Assembly: GCA_016278265.1 (NCBI GenBank)
Contig: JADQCE010000003.1
Location: forward strand, 1 to 64,000
Source: Halothiobacillus sp.
Lineage (GTDB): Bacteria; Pseudomonadota; Gammaproteobacteria; Halothiobacillales; Halothiobacillaceae
DNA length: 64,000 nucleotides
Direction of reading: 5' to 3'
Made by a program: the position numbers and the translations under genes. Shown here one piece after another: positions 16,097 through 45,704 of the stretch. Position 1 is the stretch's first letter; each line of letters opens with the position of its first letter. Below the pieces are notes generated by a model. The model did not search any database, had not been told where the DNA came from, and worked only from the letters and a program-made list of their open reading frames with translations.

Positions 16097-16758
16097 TTTC
16101 GCACGCCTGTTGCCCGAAGTGGCTTTTTGCTGCCCTCAGTGCCGGGCGCGCGAGCCCCTTTTCTTGCTTGCCCAAGAAAAGGGGCGAAAAGAAAGGCACC
16201 CCGGCCTCCTGGCCCTTCGGGCCTTCGAGTCCGGACTTCGCGTCCGCACTCGAAGCCTCGCGACAGGCGGCTGGCTTCGGGGTCGGCTCAACGTGACTTC
16301 CTGTCACGCCGAGCCTCGGAGCGACGTCCATGTCGCTCCGACCCCGACCCACCCACCTGTCGCGAGGCAGGACGCAAGGGGATATGGTTCCCAGCCATCA
16401 GGTGGCATGACTCAGATCCTCAAGGTAACCGGGAAGTCCAGAGATTACGCTCAAAGCAGGATCGGAGGGTCGGAGTCCCCTTGTGCCTTGCCTCGCGGAC
16501 GATGGATTGCAGGGTCGGGCTCGCATGGACGCGAGCCCGAGGTTCGCCGCGACAGGAGGTCGCGTCGAACCGACCCGTCCGCAATCTCTCGGTCGCGAGG
16601 CTGATCGTCGCGGATGCAATCCGCGACGATCAGGCCCGAAGGGCCGAGGCACCGGGGTGTCCTTCTTTTCGTCGGTTTTCTTGGACAAGCAAGAAAACCG
16701 ACTCGCGCGCCCGGCACCCGGGCCGGCCAGGGCCCGTCCGCAAAACCGGCGTGCGAAA
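16097..16758. repeat. Roughly 660 bp nested-palindrome element between dapC and dapD
   Basis: This gene-free stretch is one large imperfect inverted repeat with hairpins inside. Outer ends pair at 16097-16107 with 16748-16758. Long arms pair at about 16139-16223 with 16633-16715. The left core has a 12 bp perfect pair (16256-16267 / 16356-16367) enclosing 16279-16286 / 16338-16345 and 16317-16325 / 16332-16340. The right arm includes a long near-perfect hairpin at 16601-16633. Open frames across it are low-complexity Arg/Pro products that change frame, so I do not call a gene. No transposase is present. Confidence 0.7.
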
Positions 16759-29897: not shown

Positions 29898-30230
29898 ATG
29901 AAATTCACGCACCTGGTCACCCTACTGCTCGCCCTGTGGGCACCGCTGAACGCGGTGACCGCCGGCGTGGCCATGCTCGACTGCCCGATGGACGAGATGG
30001 TCGAGCACGGGGCCGACTGCCCGAGCATGGGCGGCACGACCGGGGAGGCCACTGCCTCGGCCGGCTGTGACCATTGCGCCAATTGCGTGCTGCTGGGCGG
30101 CTTCTCCCTGCCGGCGCAGGCCACGCCGGCCGCCATCCAGCTGCCCAACGGCACCCCCGACGCATCCTTGGCCGATTCGATCGCCGCCGGCGTTCCCAGC
30201 ACCCCGTTCCGCCCTCCCCTCTCGGCCTGA
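29898..30230 (+). CDS. Small Cys-rich secreted protein at the head of the efflux operon (DUF2946-like)
   Basis: The product is an exported protein of 110 residues with a signal sequence and four short metal-type motifs (LDCPMDEM, DCPSMGG, CDHCANC). A PFRPPLSA C-terminus is typical of small proteins found beside copper-resistance genes. Function is unknown; a periplasmic copper-binding or sensing role is inferred from the cysteines and the downstream tripartite pump. Confidence 0.7.
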   Translation: MKFTHLVTLLLALWAPLNAVTAGVAMLDCPMDEMVEHGADCPSMGGTTGEATASAGCDHCANCVLLGGFSLPAQATPAAIQLPNGTPDASLADSIAAGVPSTPFRPPLSA

Positions 30231-40301: not shown

Positions 40302-41888
40302 TCATTGACGCTCACGAGGCACCAGGCGATCGAAGGCGACCACCGATACCAGGCGGCGCGGGGTCTGCCCCAGTGCCGCAGCAATAGCCACGAATACCGC
40401 CACGCCCAGCATGATCAGGCCGAGCACCGCCCCGACCCGTTCGAACCACGCCCAGTCGCTCCAGATGTCGGCGGCCGGGCTCAGCCAGAGCAGCAAGCCC
40501 GCCATCGCCAACGCGGCGAGCGTGATATGCCCGATGAAACGGCGCGTACCGGGCTCGATCCGCCAGACACCACGTCGACGCAGGGTCCAGCCCAGCAGCA
40601 GCGCGTTGACCCAGGCGGCCATCACCGTGGTCAGTGCGAGTCCCACGTGGGCGAGATCGCCGCCCAGCCAGAAAATCCACGGCACCACCAGCAGGGCCTT
40701 GAAGACCAAGTTGGCGCCCACCGAGATCACCGCAATGCGCACCGGGGTGACCGTGTCCTGCCGGGCGAAGAAGCCCGGCGCGAAGATCTTGATCAGCAAG
40801 AACGCCGGCAGGCCCAGCGCGTAGGCGGTCATCGCCATCGACACCATCTGCGTGTCGGTGGGCGAGAACGCGCCGTATTCGAACAGCGTGGCCAGGATCG
40901 GCACCGACAGCCCTATCAGCCCGGCCATCGCCGGCACGCCGATCAGCAGGGTCAGGCGGAGCGCGCCGTTGACGGTGCGATTGTAATCCTCGTCGCTGCC
41001 CCGGGCGAACGCCCGCGACAGGGCCGGCAGGATGACCGTGCCGATCGCCACGCCGAACACCCCCAGCGGCAGCTCCACCAGCCGGTCGGAGTAGTACAGC
41101 CAGCTCACCGAGCCGGCCACCAAGAGCGAGGCCAGGATGGTGTCGACCAGCAGGTTGATCTGGGTCACCGAGGCGCCGAACATCGCCGGCAGCATCAGCC
41201 GCAGGGTCTTGCGTACCCCGGGGTGTCGTCCGATGCGCGGGCGCGGCAGCAGCCCCAGCCGGGCGAGAAACGGCAACAGGAAGAACAGCTGCAGGATGCC
41301 GGCGACGAACACGCCCCAGGCCAGCGCCATCACCGGCTCGTCGAACAAGGGCGCGGCAATCAGTGTCGCGGCAATCAGGCTCAGGTTGAGCCAGATGGGC
41401 GCGAGCGCCGGCATGGCGAAGCGGCCAAAGGCGTTCAGGCTACTGGCGACGAAGGCGGTCAGCGAGATGAACAGCAGATAGGGGAAGGTGATCATCAGCA
41501 TCGTCTCGGCCAGCTCGAGCTGGTCCGGATCGTCGGTAAAGCCCGGTGCGAACAGCATGACCAGCAGCGGTGCGCCGGCCAGCCCCAGGGCGACGACCAC
41601 CGCGACGATCGCCGCCAGCGTGCCGAACATGTAGTCGACGTAGCGCTTGAGCTCTTCGCGCGTCGAGGACTCGCGGTACTCGGACAGCACCGGCACGAAC
41701 GCCTGCTGGAAGGCGCCCTCGGCGAACAGCCGGCGCAGGAAATTCGGGATCTTGAAGACGACGAAGAAGGCGTCCATCGACGCGCTGGCGCCGAACACCC
41801 GCGCGAGCAGCATGTCGCGGACGAATCCGAGCACCCGCGAGATCATCGTCATGCCGCCGAAGGCCGCGCTGCTCTTCCAGATGCTCAT
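40302..41888 (-). CDS. murJ: Lipid II flippase MurJ
   Basis: MurJ flips lipid II across the inner membrane for peptidoglycan synthesis. The 528-residue protein has the MviN signature start MTMISRVLGFVRDMLLARVF and about 14 hydrophobic segments. The cavity arginines expected near RLFAEGAFQQAFVPVLSEY are present. The ATG at 41888 begins the conserved part; the ribosome-binding site is weak. It is the first gene of murJ-ribF-rmuC. Upstream lies a roughly 420 bp non-coding stretch leading to the cassette cluster. Confidence 0.95.
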   Translation of the reverse strand: MSIWKSSAAFGGMTMISRVLGFVRDMLLARVFGASASMDAFFVVFKIPNFLRRLFAEGAFQQAFVPVLSEYRESSTREELKRYVDYMFGTLAAIVAVVVALGLAGAPLLVMLFAPGFTDDPDQLELAETMLMITFPYLLFISLTAFVASSLNAFGRFAMPALAPIWLNLSLIAATLIAAPLFDEPVMALAWGVFVAGILQLFFLLPFLARLGLLPRPRIGRHPGVRKTLRLMLPAMFGASVTQINLLVDTILASLLVAGSVSWLYYSDRLVELPLGVFGVAIGTVILPALSRAFARGSDEDYNRTVNGALRLTLLIGVPAMAGLIGLSVPILATLFEYGAFSPTDTQMVSMAMTAYALGLPAFLLIKIFAPGFFARQDTVTPVRIAVISVGANLVFKALLVVPWIFWLGGDLAHVGLALTTVMAAWVNALLLGWTLRRRGVWRIEPGTRRFIGHITLAALAMAGLLLWLSPAADIWSDWAWFERVGAVLGLIMLGVAVFVAIAAALGQTPRRLVSVVAFDRLVPRERQ

Positions 41889-42118
41889 GAGGCAAAAACC
41901 CCACTGCCGGAGACACGCGCCGGCCTCCAGCGCCGGTGGGAGCCGGCCTCGCCCACGAAGACCGCGCAAGCAGCCTTCCTGTCATCGCCGGGACTCGAAG
42001 CCGACGAGGGGGAACGCACGCCTGACGCGCTCCACTGGCGAGACACACCCCCAAAGTGTCGAATGACAGGCGTGCCGGCCCGGTCACGTCTCATGCTCCC
42101 TTCCTCCGAACCACCCAC

Positions 42119-42254
42119 CCGTGCGACTACGCTCCAGACATTTGCCAGGACCGGCTTCTGACCGACAGCACTGAGGTCCAGGTCCTCGAGCATCAGATCG
42201 CGCTCCGTGTGCACGCCCCTCCAGCACGAACGGCAGGTCGTTCGCCTCGGACAG
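42119..42254 (-). pseudogene. Decayed 3' portion of a second tesA copy
   Basis: On the minus strand this encodes LSEANDLP, a shifted stretch, then ERDLMLEDLDLSAVGQ and KPVLANVWSVVAR. The intact tesA at 44287 has LAETNGLP, ERELMMDDGIHPNADGQ and VLENVWEVVAP at the same places. The catalytic Asp and His of DGIHP are gone. The sequence between murJ and here (41889-42118) shows only short GC-rich inverted repeats and no gene. Confidence 0.6.
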
Positions 42255-42259
42255 AAGGG

Positions 42260-42316
42260 AAATGCCAGAGCGCACCGGCGCACTTTGGTGCGTCCGAGTG
42301 ACGTGAACTGTTAGGA
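42260..42316 (-). other. attC-like remnant at the end of the SGNH cassette
   Basis: The SGNH stop TAA (42311-42313) lies in TCCTAACAGTTC, the inverse-core side of an attC. It is followed by a GCGCAC..GTGCGC-rich hairpin. No matching GTTRRRY core is found before the tesA relic, so the site looks truncated. Confidence 0.45.
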
Positions 42317-42907
42317 CTCATAAAACCACCAAGTTGGTGACGACAAAACAATTTTTGCCATTTTTTCGTAACCGTTACTTCTAGGATGTGAGCCGTCATT
42401 GCTCATGACCTCACGCTTGTATGCAGCGTCAGATACTAGCGGCGAAAAAAGATCAACATACGGGACGCCCAGCGCCGCCGCCTCTTCCGCAAATGCGTGT
42501 GAAAGCGCCAGAATTCTCTCATTTTGCTCAACATCCCCAACTGGGGGCGGACCGAGCAAGATAATTTTGTATTTTTTGGCTTTAATAAGTAGCTCTCTAA
42601 GATTTGCACGTGACTCCTCGTAAGGAACACGCACAGAACCATTTTCAATTACAGTGTCGTTTACTCCGAAGGAAAGCACGACTCGGCAATCAAAGGGCTC
42701 AGGCAATCTAAGAGAGCATTCAACCTCCAAACGTTGCAAAATATCTCTGCTTGTGTTCCGTCGTATACCAAGGTTGTAGTAGGTGACAGGAACGCCACGC
42801 GCATGAGCGGCAGCGCACAAACGCCCAGCCCAGCCAAGAGCCTCTTCATCTCCCGTGCCATTGACGAAAGAATCACCAACAAAACAAATTCTAATATCTT
42901 TAGTCAT
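42311..42907 (-). CDS. SGNH/GDSL hydrolase carried as an integron cassette
   Basis: This is an esterase/lipase-type protein of 198 residues. Block I reads FVGDSFVNGTGD (Ser13), block III SFGVNDT (Asn83), and block V NDGSHP (Asp171, His174), so the catalytic set is complete. No signal peptide is seen. Base composition is more AT-rich than the flanking core genes. It begins 20 bp after an attC core (GTTAGGG) and its TAA falls in another attC-like site, the layout of a promoterless gene cassette. The start is ATG 42907; a TTG two codons upstream is possible. Its substrate is unknown. Confidence 0.8.
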   Translation of the reverse strand: MTKDIRICFVGDSFVNGTGDEEALGWAGRLCAAAHARGVPVTYYNLGIRRNTSRDILQRLEVECSLRLPEPFDCRVVLSFGVNDTVIENGSVRVPYEESRANLRELLIKAKKYKIILLGPPPVGDVEQNERILALSHAFAEEAAALGVPYVDLFSPLVSDAAYKREVMSNDGSHPRSNGYEKMAKIVLSSPTWWFYES

Positions 42908-42926
42908 CGACAACTCGTGATTTTCA

Positions 42927-43004
42927 CCCTAACGCGGAGAAAAGCGCCGCCCCATCATGGACGTCTAGCGACCGCAGGCCGCTTACTGATGCGAATTGTT
43001 AGAT
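42927..43004 (-). other. attC recombination site between SGNH and HEPN cassettes
   Basis: On the minus strand the site opens with ATCTAACAATTCGC and closes with CTCCGCGTTAGGG, 78 bp in all. The arms AAGCGGCC and GGCGGCGCTT pair inside. The first core contains the TAA stop of the HEPN gene. The CTAACAATTCG opening is the form seen in classic class 1 integron cassettes such as aadA. Confidence 0.8.
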
Positions 43005-43541
43005 ATTTCTCTCAAGATAATCATCCGTTGCGCGCACCAACTCCCTTAGGAATCTGATCACCTTCTCCAATTCATCTTTCTTAATCAGATGAGCAGCCGG
43101 CGGTCCATTATTGATTGGCTTCGAGCGATGAACGGCATCTCCACGCTTTGAAATCCACTGATTTAGAGATTTTCGAGCCTTTTCCGGCGTCACGTTCGCC
43201 CAAGACCACGCTGAAGTAACGTCTAATCCAAGATATTCCTGGAATATCTTTTTGGTCTTATCTGAGGTTGGGTTGTGAAACTGCTTGAGCTCTTGTTGGA
43301 GTTTTTTATGAATAAAATCCCCAACATAACTGCCAGAGACGACACTGAGGCGTTTATCCATAGCCTCGGTGACACGGTCTTCAACGTATGTTTCCCAAGC
43401 CGTCAAGGCCATCACCAAGCCAGCTCGCTTTAGCACCTCGGCATTTGCTGGGGGCGGATTGCAGTTAATCGCATCGAAGTGAGCAAGGAGCTCTTCTGCG
43501 TCTATTATTCCATGCTCGAACGAGCTCTTTGCTTGTGACAT
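42999..43541 (-). CDS. HEPN-domain protein (RiboL-PSP-HEPN type) in a gene cassette
   Basis: This 180-residue, mostly helical protein contains VMALTAWETYVEDRV (about 43-57) and the RX4H motif RGDAVH (Arg133-His138), the active site of HEPN ribonucleases. Relatives occur in toxin, phage-defence and stress systems, where they cut RNA. No cognate antitoxin (MNT or other) is encoded beside it. The ATG follows an AAGGGAAT ribosome-binding site. The TAA stop lies inside an attC. AT-richer codon use than neighbours supports acquisition by transfer. Confidence 0.72.
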   Translation of the reverse strand: MSQAKSSFEHGIIDAEELLAHFDAINCNPPPANAEVLKRAGLVMALTAWETYVEDRVTEAMDKRLSVVSGSYVGDFIHKKLQQELKQFHNPTSDKTKKIFQEYLGLDVTSAWSWANVTPEKARKSLNQWISKRGDAVHRSKPINNGPPAAHLIKKDELEKVIRFLRELVRATDDYLERNI

Positions 43542-43550
43542 ATTCCCTTC

Positions 43551-43614
43551 TCTAAAGTTGAAGCTCAGCCGCGCGCCGCAGGCGCGTCGGCTGCAGCGCC
43601 TTGCCTTGTTAGCC
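43551..43614 (-). other. attC recombination site between HEPN and membrane-protein cassettes
   Basis: On the minus strand the site starts GGCTAACAAGGC and ends CAACTTTAGA (64 bp), so its second core is degenerate. The inner arms GCAGCCGACGCGCC and GGCGCGCGGCTGAGC pair strongly around a 3 nt loop, the standard attC cruciform. The first core holds the TAA of the upstream cassette gene. Confidence 0.75.
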
Positions 43615-44082
43615 GCTCGGAGAGGTTGCTGATCTATCGGCGCGGAAGGAGAACGCGGATGGCTCTAACCGGAACAGCGTGTCGGACAACCGCAGCATCT
43701 CGATGTCGTGACGCCGGTTGCCCAGGCTCTCCCTCATCTCGACGCACAGCCGCTTGAAGGCGAGAACCTCTTGCTCACGCTCAAGCGTTCCTCCCGCTAG
43801 CCAGAAATCAGCAAGTGCCTCTACCACCACAGATTCCGCGCACAGACAGATGCGCGCCTTGGCTTCGTTCAACACCGCCAGCTCCTCCAACTCGTCGTTT
43901 TTCTTGCCCAAGCGCCGAGCAGCAACCAAACGCGAAACAGCTTGGAGAAAGTCCCCGTACGCCTTTAGTCGCATGCTAGCCAACTCATTTCCACGCGCCC
44001 GCCGGTCTGCGAGGCGATGTCCAATAAGCGCGACAATCACAGCGCTGGCTAATGAGAGCAAGGTTGCAAAAGCTGCTGACAT
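43609..44082 (-). CDS. Unknown single-pass membrane protein in a gene cassette
   Basis: The 157-residue product has one N-terminal membrane helix (about 3-22, AAFATLLSLASAVIVALIGH), then a charged, helix-rich cytoplasmic part with RLKAYGDFLQAVSRL and a C-terminal region. I recognise no family. The ribosome-binding site GGAAGGAAG is close to the ATG. Its TAA stop is in an attC core and another attC-like site lies upstream, so it is the first intact cassette in the direction of transcription. Confidence 0.65.
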   Translation of the reverse strand: MSAAFATLLSLASAVIVALIGHRLADRRARGNELASMRLKAYGDFLQAVSRLVAARRLGKKNDELEELAVLNEAKARICLCAESVVVEALADFWLAGGTLEREQEVLAFKRLCVEMRESLGNRRHDIEMLRLSDTLFRLEPSAFSFRADRSATSPSG

Positions 44083-44111
44083 ATCTTCCTTCCGGCTTGC
44101 TATAAATGGAC

Positions 44112-44163
44112 GGCCTTAACGCCATACAACACCACGCCAGCGGCGTACCCATAATTTAATGCC
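44112..44163 (-). other. Degenerate attC-like site upstream of the first cassette gene
   Basis: On the minus strand the stretch GGCATTAAATTATGG ... TATGGCGTTAAGGCC has an ACGCC/GGCGT central hairpin and a GTTAAGG core. It ends 29 bp before the membrane-protein ATG. The 5' core is diverged (ATTAAAT). The 120 bp between it and the tesA stop (44164-44286) has no supported gene; it may be an eroded earlier cassette. Confidence 0.5.
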
Positions 44164-44286
44164 TTGCAAATACACCCGAGGCTCCGTGTACGGGCGTTCT
44201 GCAGCGTATCGGCGGTGTAGTGCGCCGTATAAGGACCCAGCCGTGCCGGCCAATAGCGCCACAAACGTCCGGCCAGTGGAGCGCGC

Positions 44287-44970
44287 TCACTGGGCTGTCT
44301 TCGCATCATCCAGCGCCAACAAAGGCGCCACCACCTCCCAGACGTTCTCCAACACCCCGTCCTGCCCGTCGGCATTCGGGTGGATGCCGTCGTCCATCAT
44401 CAGTTCGCGCTCGCTCGCCACGCCGTCGAGCAGGAAGGGCAGCACGGGCAGGCCGTTGGTCTCGGCCAGCCGCTCGTACATGGCGGCGAATGGCTCGGCG
44501 TAGGCGGGGCCGTAGTTGGTGGGCAGCATGATGCCGAGCAGCACCACCCGGGCGCCATGGTCCTCGACGCGGTCGATCAGCGATTGCAGGTTGGCCTCGA
44601 TGCGCGTCAAGGGCAGGCCACGCAGGCCATCGTTCGCCCCCAGTTCGAGCAGCACCCAGTCGTAGTCGCCGGTCTCGAGCACCTCGGGCAAGCGCGAGAG
44701 GCCGCCGGAGGTCGTTTCGCCGCTGACCGAGGCATTGGTTACCTCGAAGCGATCGGGGGCGCGCTCGGCAAGGCGCTCGCGCAGGCCGGCCACCCATCCG
44801 GCCTCGGTGGGCAGCTGGTAGGCCGCCGAGAGCGAGTCGCCGAAGACCAGCACCTGGGCCGGCACCGCCGGGGTGTCGTCACCTATACTCGCGCCGAACC
44901 AGAAACACAGCAGCAACAGGCCGGCGATACGCGCCGGCCAGCCGAAACCGAGCTTTCCCCATGACCTCAT
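44287..44970 (-). CDS. tesA: TesA-like periplasmic esterase/lysophospholipase (SGNH)
   Basis: This is a multifunctional acyl hydrolase of the TesA/TAP family. The 227-residue protein has an N-terminal hydrophobic export segment (about 14-30), VFGDSLSAAYQ (Ser46), SVSGETTSGG, ELGANDGLRG (Asn113) and DDGIHPN (Asp194, His197). Its start (ATG 44970) overlaps the start of the divergent ybbA by 10 bp. The same tesA-ybbA-ybbP arrangement exists in E. coli. A broken copy of its 3' end lies about 2 kb away at 42119-42254. Confidence 0.92.
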   Translation of the reverse strand: MRSWGKLGFGWPARIAGLLLLCFWFGASIGDDTPAVPAQVLVFGDSLSAAYQLPTEAGWVAGLRERLAERAPDRFEVTNASVSGETTSGGLSRLPEVLETGDYDWVLLELGANDGLRGLPLTRIEANLQSLIDRVEDHGARVVLLGIMLPTNYGPAYAEPFAAMYERLAETNGLPVLPFLLDGVASERELMMDDGIHPNADGQDGVLENVWEVVAPLLALDDAKTAQ

Positions 44971-45704
44971 CCGATGCTCCCCGTGACACGACCCGGCCGA
45001 TTCTGTCCGTCGAAGGCGTCACGCAGACCGTGCGCACCCCCGAACCGCTGACCATTGTGCATCAGGCCACCCTGCAAATCTTCCCCGGTGAGGCGGTCGC
45101 GCTGGTCGGACCGTCGGGAGCCGGCAAGTCCACCCTGCTGGCCCTGATGGCCGGTCTCGACTCGCCCAGCCAAGGCGAAGTCGTGCTCGACGGCCATGCG
45201 CTTTCGCAACTCGACGAGGATGGCCGGGCCGCGGTGCGCTCGGGCCGGGTCGGCTTCGTGTTCCAGTCCTTCCAGCTGATCGACGGACTCAATGCACTCG
45301 AGAACGTCGCCCTGCCCCTGGAGCTGACCGGTGCGCGCGATGCCGAGCGCCGGGCGCGAGAGGCGCTGGAGGAAGTGGGTCTCGGCGAACGCTTGCGCCA
45401 CCTGCCCCGGCAACTCTCCGGTGGCGAGCAACAGCGCGTGGCACTGGCCCGCGCGTTTGTCGGCGAGCCGGCGGTGCTGTTCGCCGACGAGCCGACCGGA
45501 TCGCTGGACACCGCCACCGGTGAACACGTCATCGAGCTGCTCTTCCGCCTGCGCGAACGTCATCAGACCACGCTGGTGCTGGTCACCCACGACCCGGCCC
45601 TGGCGGCGCGCTGCGACCGGGGTTTCCAGATACAGGCCGGGCGCGTCAGCGACTGGACGCCGGACCCCGAGGCCCTACAGGCACACCCCGGAGGCCGGGC
45701 ATGA
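44961..45704 (+). CDS. ybbA: ABC transporter ATPase YbbA (LolD/MacB-like)
   Basis: This is the ATP-hydrolysing subunit of a FtsX-type ABC system. The 247-residue protein has Walker A GPSGAGKST, Q-loop FVFQSFQLI, signature LSGGEQQR, Walker B VLFADEPTGSLD and the switch histidine in VTHD. It overlaps ybbP by 4 bp (ATGA). The system's cargo is unknown; family relatives extract lipoproteins or act as mechanotransmitters. Divergent overlap with tesA leaves almost no intergenic promoter space, so promoters lie inside the two coding regions. Confidence 0.92.
   Translation: MTSSDAPRDTTRPILSVEGVTQTVRTPEPLTIVHQATLQIFPGEAVALVGPSGAGKSTLLALMAGLDSPSQGEVVLDGHALSQLDEDGRAAVRSGRVGFVFQSFQLIDGLNALENVALPLELTGARDAERRAREALEEVGLGERLRHLPRQLSGGEQQRVALARAFVGEPAVLFADEPTGSLDTATGEHVIELLFRLRERHQTTLVLVTHDPALAARCDRGFQIQAGRVSDWTPDPEALQAHPGGRA

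Follow-up and report, generated by a model that had tools for sequence, protein, structure and literature searches.

A degenerate, integrase-less cassette array with an attI-like start between tesA and murJ in Halothiobacillus sp.

The question raised by this locus is how integron cassettes can come to lie at a chromosomal site where no integrase is found. The window analyzed here is a stretch of 64,000 nucleotides from Halothiobacillus sp. (assembly GCA_016278265.1, contig JADQCE010000003.1, positions 1 to 64,000 of the forward strand). At 42260–44163, between the resident genes tesA and murJ, an earlier note made from the letters alone had described a cluster of attC sites lacking integron integrase (CALIN) with three cargo genes. 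The array is real but degenerate. That it is some form of decayed cassette array without an integrase is almost certain; more specifically, it is probably a fossil of three cassettes, which starts at an attI-like site and was seeded in trans. The earlier note missed both the fossil state of the array and the attI-like segment at its start (44234–44095); because this leader precedes the array, the locus is more than a loose attC cluster. In the following, other genomes are referred to by G numbers, where needed, and individual loci by L numbers.

On the minus strand, the gene order is tesA, an open reading frame (ORF) of 157 aa, a HEPN gene, an SGNH hydrolase gene, and murJ. Cassette 1 carries the 157-aa ORF (43609–44082); cassette 2 extends from recombination point to recombination point over 42933–43555 and contains the HEPN gene (42999–43541); and cassette 3 carries the gene of an SGNH/GDSL hydrolase of 200 aa (42311–42913). 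The reading frames of all three genes are open. As the earlier note had stated, each of the three ends in a TAA located within a CTAAC core and followed by a hairpin, where the gene ends read ...GGCTAACAAGG for the 157-aa ORF, ...ATCTAACAATTCG for the HEPN gene, and ...TCCTAACAGTT for the SGNH hydrolase gene. The genes had also been called AT-richer, which holds for the HEPN and SGNH genes (G+C of 0.47 in each, against 0.68 in the flanking tesA and murJ) and only moderately for the 157-aa ORF (0.58).

The attC sites were searched for using a covariance model built from 14 attC sites of arrays in other genomes, where the sites of the window and of the three nearest HEPN relatives were excluded from the training; the model served as a stand-in for the attC model of IntegronFinder. 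Training alignments A1 (22 sites), A2 (13), and A3 (14) were available, of which A2 and A3 were hand-picked for regular L-box spacing, and only A3 was used. In the unfiltered scan of both strands over positions 30000–55000 of the window, the best match was 42927–43004 (site B, behind the HEPN gene), with 21.2 bits and E 0.0029. It was followed by 43550–43614 (site A, behind the 157-aa ORF; 15.6 bits, E 0.077) and by 42261–42312 (13.2 bits, E 0.31), which is part of site C (42261–42318, behind the SGNH gene). These top three matches all lie on the minus strand, at the three gene ends and within 1.4 kb, and the fourth, at 8.9 bits, is noise. A CALIN is defined by two or more attC sites grouped on the same strand, and the two sites that the earlier note had placed at 42927–43004 and 43551–43614 were recovered by the model. 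As a control, 21 loci were scanned, consisting of 18 of 80 HEPN loci, oriented to the plus strand, and three others; the 66 matches at E ≤ 0.5 were all on the plus strand, and seven of them were training sites.

A strict motif-and-arm scanner, which gave 65 plus-strand, 17 minus-strand, and 12 shuffled matches on all 80 HEPN loci, returned no attC site in the window, and the Rfam scan at gathering thresholds returned no match at the array. The z value of single-strand folding was −2.3 for site A, −2.7 for site C, and an unremarkable −1.2 for site B. A fourth attC candidate at 44118–44232 was rejected: its arms seemed complementary, but 466 of 500 shuffles were equally good and the attC model did not match, and the region proved to be part of the attI-like leader. 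The same shuffle test also fails for site A (430/500) and site B (128/500); it is therefore non-discriminative and was not used as evidence.

The HEPN gene is, to judge from its boundaries, a true cassette that was moved between G^TT points. Its nearest relatives belong to Marinobacter sp. F4218 (94%), Thiopseudomonas denitrificans (92%), and Gilvimarinus chinensis (92%), among others. On the upstream side, TTAGAGAAGGGAATATG is common to the window and the loci L029, L030, and L031, with divergent sequences before it; on the downstream side, the attC site is common to the same four up to GCGTTA, with divergent sequences after it. The unit is thus the same from recombination point to recombination point in four genomes with unrelated flanks, which is the signature of a gene cassette, that is, of one mobile unit in unrelated contexts. 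At L032 (Aestuariicella, 89%), the start is shared and, like in the window, no G precedes it; no intact site is found downstream. The site that precedes the HEPN cassette at L030, CTAACAATTCGTTCAAGCC...CAAGCGTTAG, is one that we take to be an aadA-type class 1 attC, and the likeness to class 1 sites suggested by the earlier note was therefore fair. Of the 18 HEPN loci given to the covariance model, 12 have an attC match at the stop codon of the HEPN gene, two of these matches being training sites, while the other six, and by eye many remoter relatives, have no attC context. An integron integrase over the cut-off was detected in 8 of 13 genomes with a HEPN relative, and a comparison of coordinates places it no more than 6 kb from the HEPN gene in 4 of 13 (L030, L038, L039, and L043); for this check, 14 of the 80 HEPN loci had been chosen, and L034 was left out.

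In the genome under study, which is 99.96% complete and includes the window, the integron integrase profile TIGR02249 gave eight matches, of which none exceeded the cut-off and none reached E 1e-40. None of them spans profile positions from about 184 to 236, which would be expected of Xer-type recombinases, as we take them to be. The absence of an integrase that the earlier note had reported for the window therefore holds for the whole genome at this cut-off. A survey of the family detected an integron integrase over the cut-off in 9 of 27 genomes, and within the genus only in the congener G008. The locus thus has no integrase nearby or in its genome, as in a CALIN, and lacks the functional intI of a complete integron. 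With the attC matches at the predicted places and the HEPN boundaries shared across genera, the CALIN reading of the earlier note was upheld.

The state of the recombination sites indicates decay. The minus-strand sequence of site A is AACTTTAGAG, compared with AACGTTAGAG for a functional site; its degenerate core, TTTAGAG in place of the expected GTTAGAG, has lost the core GTT. Site C consists of the 5′ core and the hairpin and stops short of the 3′ core, so that its 3′ half is lost. The full core (GTTAGGG) is kept by site B only, where the L box is eroded and the score is 21.2 bits compared with 37–47 bits in L029–L031. The earlier note had reported 3′ cores where intact, which was correct for site B and does not extend to sites A and C. 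Purifying selection acts on the HEPN gene, the only cassette gene for which it was demonstrated: dN is 0.025 and dS 0.37 relative to L029, and the values on the window branch are about 0.023 and 0.17, respectively, by three-point arithmetic with L031. Site B differs from that of L029 at 11 of 71 positions, which is not different from the 36 of 180 third codon positions (p 0.48), and from that of L031 at 15 of 71 compared with 46 of 180 (p 0.52). Among the relatives, the site changes less than the third positions, with 2 of 71 against 67 of 180 for L029–L030 (p 1e-9), 6 against 60 for L030–L031 (p 3e-5), and 8 against 42 for L029–L031 (p 0.035). The constraint on site B has thus likely loosened, and the decay is seen more plainly in the lost cores of site A, site C, and the attI-like leader than in the substitution counts.

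The array starts at the attI-like leader (44095–44234, minus strand), a conserved segment of about 140 nt right after tesA, which has its homologue in the attI region adjoining intI in G008. At trpD-glyQ of G008, where intI is kept, the leader separates intI from the first AT-rich gene of the integron in the canonical divergent layout. Downstream of tesA, the leader is found in the genome under study, G001, and G008, and its 5′ half alone in G005. A hidden Markov model (HMM) trained on four other loci, with the own copy left out, matched the window at 44223–44100 with E 9e-11, and the reversed model gave no match; in the window and 80 control loci (about 0.95 Mb), this site was the sole match at E ≤ 10. 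Leader copies are present at four loci in the genus, including a position near a yceI-like gene in G009 and in G001 (C15); the yceI-like, cupin, and DEAD-box helicase genes are named by their Pfam domains. In the genome under study (C10, L191 3100–3731) and in G006 (C22, L193 2816–3424), a leader next to a DEAD-box helicase gene leads directly into the same cupin gene, and no attC site was found at these two loci.

Eleven leader copies were aligned by eye around the core, with the truncated tesA copy of G005 left out; two orthologous pairs among the eleven raise the apparent conservation. The copies are alike up to ...CATTTATAG and then diverge: the mean fraction of the commonest base is 0.78 over the last 20 positions before this point, 0.85 over the next 3, and 0.47 at positions 7–30 after it. 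The sequence at the point is G|TT in nine of the eleven copies, G|CT in the yceI-side copy of G001, and G|CA in the window copy, where the crossover-equivalent lies between 44100 and 44099. Like an attI site, the window copy is homologous to the sequence that separates intI from the first cassette of an integron; it lacks the G^TT crossover and, since it reads G|CA, is termed attI-like or dead attI here. The leader is probably attI, and its copy in the window a dead attI.

At the tesA-murJ position of the congeners, the gap is about 90–810 bp without an attC match in five genomes (G002, G004, G006, G007, and G009), and widens to about 1.8 kb in G001, 1.8 kb in G005, and 4.2 kb in G008, where it holds AT-rich DNA in all three; in G010, a contig edge falls there. 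Some congeners thus carry other genes at this site, which, according to their domain matches, are partly defence-like. In G005, an AbiV-family HEPN protein (PF18728, E 2e-44) is located behind an attC site (28.5 bits). In G001, a GmrSD_N protein (E 1e-22) is encoded, along with a nucleotidyltransferase match that is weak and under the cut-off, and the scanner found an attC-form sequence with a perfect L box but only 4/7 R pairs, whose last core, GTTACGG, abuts the murJ start codon. In G008, a GAF-GGDEF protein is followed by a transposase and YefM-YoeB. At trpD-glyQ, G009 has three attC matches (L164 5267–6538; E 2e-8, 0.03, and 0.13) and no intI, and the genome under study has an AT-rich gap of 2.3 kb with a G+C of 0.51 (C6, L166 1611–3952) and no intI, leader, or attC match. 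As a separate observation, YefM-YoeB toxin-antitoxin pairs occur at both tesA-murJ (L160 4685–6802) and trpD-glyQ (L161 3270–3897) of G008.

The process that we favor for the tesA-murJ array can be described as follows. An IntI would have acted in trans, most likely from an integron like that of G008 at trpD-glyQ, and circular cassettes would have joined the attI-like site after tesA by attI × attC recombination. The integrase is now absent from the genome, within the limits of the 99.96%-complete assembly. The crossover bases of the attI-like site, the core of site A, and half of site C have been lost, and site B is eroded. The cassettes may hardly be movable any more, since excision is unlikely with decaying attC sites. 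The cargo has been retained, as seen from the three open frames and, for the HEPN gene, from purifying selection. As tesA is transcribed towards the array, the cassettes may be expressed by read-through from tesA.

A wider proposal is tentative, and we consider it rather less likely to be right than wrong. The attI-like sites would have been copied from intI to at least three places (tesA-murJ and the yceI-like and DEAD-box helicase genes) to act as landing pads, where a trans-acting integrase would seed short arrays, partly of defence-type genes, which would be read from the promoter of the neighbor and persist as fixed islets once the integrase is gone. The usual view of CALINs is one of degraded integrons or of off-target insertions. 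If the copying and seeding of attI are true, the capture machinery of integrons has more fixed outlets than the one beside intI, and the positions at which defence-type genes are stored can be predicted.

Several results weigh against the trans-seeded fossil. The nearest congener, G006, has no array at tesA-murJ, and the attC model matched nothing in the inserts that G001 and G008 carry there. Taken singly, sites A and C score weakly, with E 0.08 and 0.3 in 25 kb. In the genome-wide attC search, site B was the sole match to reach E 5, at E 0.32; because this value is weak and the strict scanner is blank, a genome-wide screen could overlook the array. An HMM built from the intI-side copy of G008 alone matched the leader of the window weakly (E 0.019), and no promoter-like site was found in 41800–45100. 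Relative to L030, site B differs less than the third codon positions do (11/71 against 70/180, p 0.0003), which does not fit drift, and although the window branch carries 9 attC changes and the L029 branch 1, compared with 11 and 9 at third positions, this excess is non-significant (p 0.10). Around a 66% homologue of the SGNH protein in G183, CTAAC and GTTAGG cores can be seen by eye, and the attC model gave no match.

Among the alternatives, the one that survives best, unlikely as it appears to us, is a plain CALIN, in which a foreign IntI inserted the cassettes at chance attG sites and the leader is an intergenic repeat of the genus that has nothing to do with attI. The 5′ half of the leader is palindromic and matches itself on the opposite strand, as repetitive extragenic palindromic (REP)-like repeats would. 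Leaders are found without intI at trpD-glyQ of G001, G005, and G010, and no leader match is found at the trpD-glyQ array of G009 or at the tesA loci of five congeners; at the two rhlE copies, the leader is followed by the same cupin gene and no attC was matched. An unrelated repeat is, however, difficult to reconcile with the leader of G008 between intI and the first AT-rich gene, or with the loss of similarity just past G|TT in copies at four loci. In addition, a leader model that included the own copy in its training matched 7 of 11 genomes of the genus and 1 of 16 outside it at E 0.03, where the positive genomes G005, G006, and G010 were absent from the training set. All eleven copies precede 600 nt of lower G+C, 0.38–0.58 compared with 0.66 for the window.

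It is more improbable that a complete integron has degraded in place, with intI once beside the array at tesA-murJ and later deleted. A rearranged locus is shown by the inverted repeat at 42026–42044 and 44267–44285 and by the decayed copy of the tesA 3′ end, and in Xanthomonas, according to the accessible part of PMC12444791, most ilvD-linked intI of an earlier survey are predicted to be inactive. However, a tblastn search with the G008 intI gave no match in the window or at the tesA loci of G001, G005, G008, and G010, and the end of tesA is 52 nt from the leader, which leaves no room for intI on that side. That the locus is not derived from an integron, with foreign genes, chance hairpins, and chance CTAAC stops, is scarcely credible, as the blank strict scan and the unremarkable folding of site B are outweighed by the location of the three best matches of the attC model in 25 kb at the three gene ends and by HEPN cassette boundaries common to three other genera, which contradict chance.

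The array resembles CALINs in its two or more attC sites on one strand, its small AT-rich genes, and the lack of IntI in the genome; it differs in that the 3′ core is damaged or absent in two of three attC sites, in its attI-like start, and in the other gene sets at the same site in congeners. A CALIN without intI is described for Halorhodospira halochloris in the part of PMC7923331 consulted. The Xanthomonas CALINs away from ilvD-intI are similar as intI-less clusters at recurrent positions in one genus, and those at conserved loci were read as traces of ancestral integron activity; no attI copy is mentioned in the accessible part of that source (PMC12444791), whereas here four loci are marked by a leader homologous to intI-adjacent sequence. 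The closest precedent is a Shewanella prophage CALIN that starts with an attI site; as far as the excerpt goes (PMC9892861), it concerns one cryptic prophage with intI, whereas the present copies are chromosomal, at several loci and in several species, and mostly without intI. Delta-attI-type cassettes of mobile integrons likewise carry attI sequence away from intI, but in the portion available (PMC12901181) attI fragments stand in for the terminal attC of resistance cassettes, and here the segment precedes the array. In the literature covered, with subscription journals outside the coverage, no report of attI copies at several intI-less chromosomal loci was found. The locus stands above an ordinary CALIN in beginning with an attI-like leader of which further copies exist at several positions in the genus; the Xanthomonas and Shewanella precedents set a limit to this, and the leader is a probable landing site.

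The HEPN protein belongs to the RiboL-PSP-HEPN family (PF18735, E 3e-29) and is a predicted RNase with the motif R133-GDAV-H138 (RGDAVH, R-x4-H), in which R133 and H138 are invariant in 81/81 sequences; L077, which has a stop codon, was left out of the alignment. The predicted structure has a mean predicted local distance difference test (pLDDT) score of 88.9, and its best structural matches, obtained with a second aligner, are HEPN domains, HepT toxins included, with Z of 9–11, a range in which helical bundles call for caution. With Foldseek on its own, nothing reached E ≤ 0.001, and the PDB sequence search gave nothing useful. The HEPN fold and the Rx4-6H motif that mark HEPN RNases are both present, and from the fold and the invariant motif the protein is most likely an RNase, which may be triggered by stress or phage. 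The integron-cassette HEPN family of PDB 3jrt shares the HEPN domain, the Rx4-6H motif, and the location in a cassette, but RiboL-PSP-HEPN is listed separately in the part of PMC3710099 seen; the 3jrt family is absent from the structural match list, an absence that does not amount to exclusion. In the same part, RNase-induced dormancy is hypothesised for HEPN integron cassettes.

The SGNH protein (PF13472, E 1e-21) is close to PDB 1vjg, a putative lipase (E 3e-52), and no attC context was found at six further SGNH loci. The 157-aa protein starts with a hydrophobic stretch in its N-terminal part, and its two distant relatives share 44% and 25% identity with it; Pfam, NCBIfam, PADLOC, and PHROGs gave no notable match. 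That it is membrane-anchored is a guess. An attC site found by the scanner follows the 25% relative, and none is found at the 44% relative. The assignment of the SGNH and 157-aa genes as cassettes leans mainly on their own attC matches. PADLOC gave no match for the HEPN or SGNH protein and only E 0.05 for the 157-aa ORF, and relatives occur in plasmid records for the HEPN gene (three) and the SGNH gene (two) and in none for the 157-aa ORF. The undescribed accessory functions anticipated by the earlier note were too strong a claim, since HEPN cassettes (PMC3710099, in the part seen) and SGNH hydrolases are known kinds, and the 157-aa protein alone is without a family.

The resident genes lie on the same strand as the cassettes. 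tesA (44287–44970), an acyl-CoA thioesterase/SGNH hydrolase, is assigned by NF007819 (E 1.4e-50, under the curated cut-off) and by synteny in the genus, and murJ (40302–41969), downstream of the array, by TIGR01695 (E 1e-134). The decayed second copy of the tesA 3′ end (42102–42254) has 74–79% identity to nine tesA copies of the genus. It sits between site C and murJ, and together with the intact tesA on the far side of the array it forms a direct repeat. A foreign origin of this fragment was considered and dropped, because identities of 0.74–0.79 to the nine copies are too similar to decide. The inverted repeat that flanks the array has a length of 19 nt (89%), and its exact 14-nt core, CGCGCTCCACTGGC, occurs only twice in the genome, both times at the array; no target duplication or family that would indicate a transposon or miniature inverted-repeat transposable element was found for it. 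Elsewhere in the window, the TwoAYGGAY RNA motif has two matches on opposite strands at 16233–16622, both above the Rfam gathering score.

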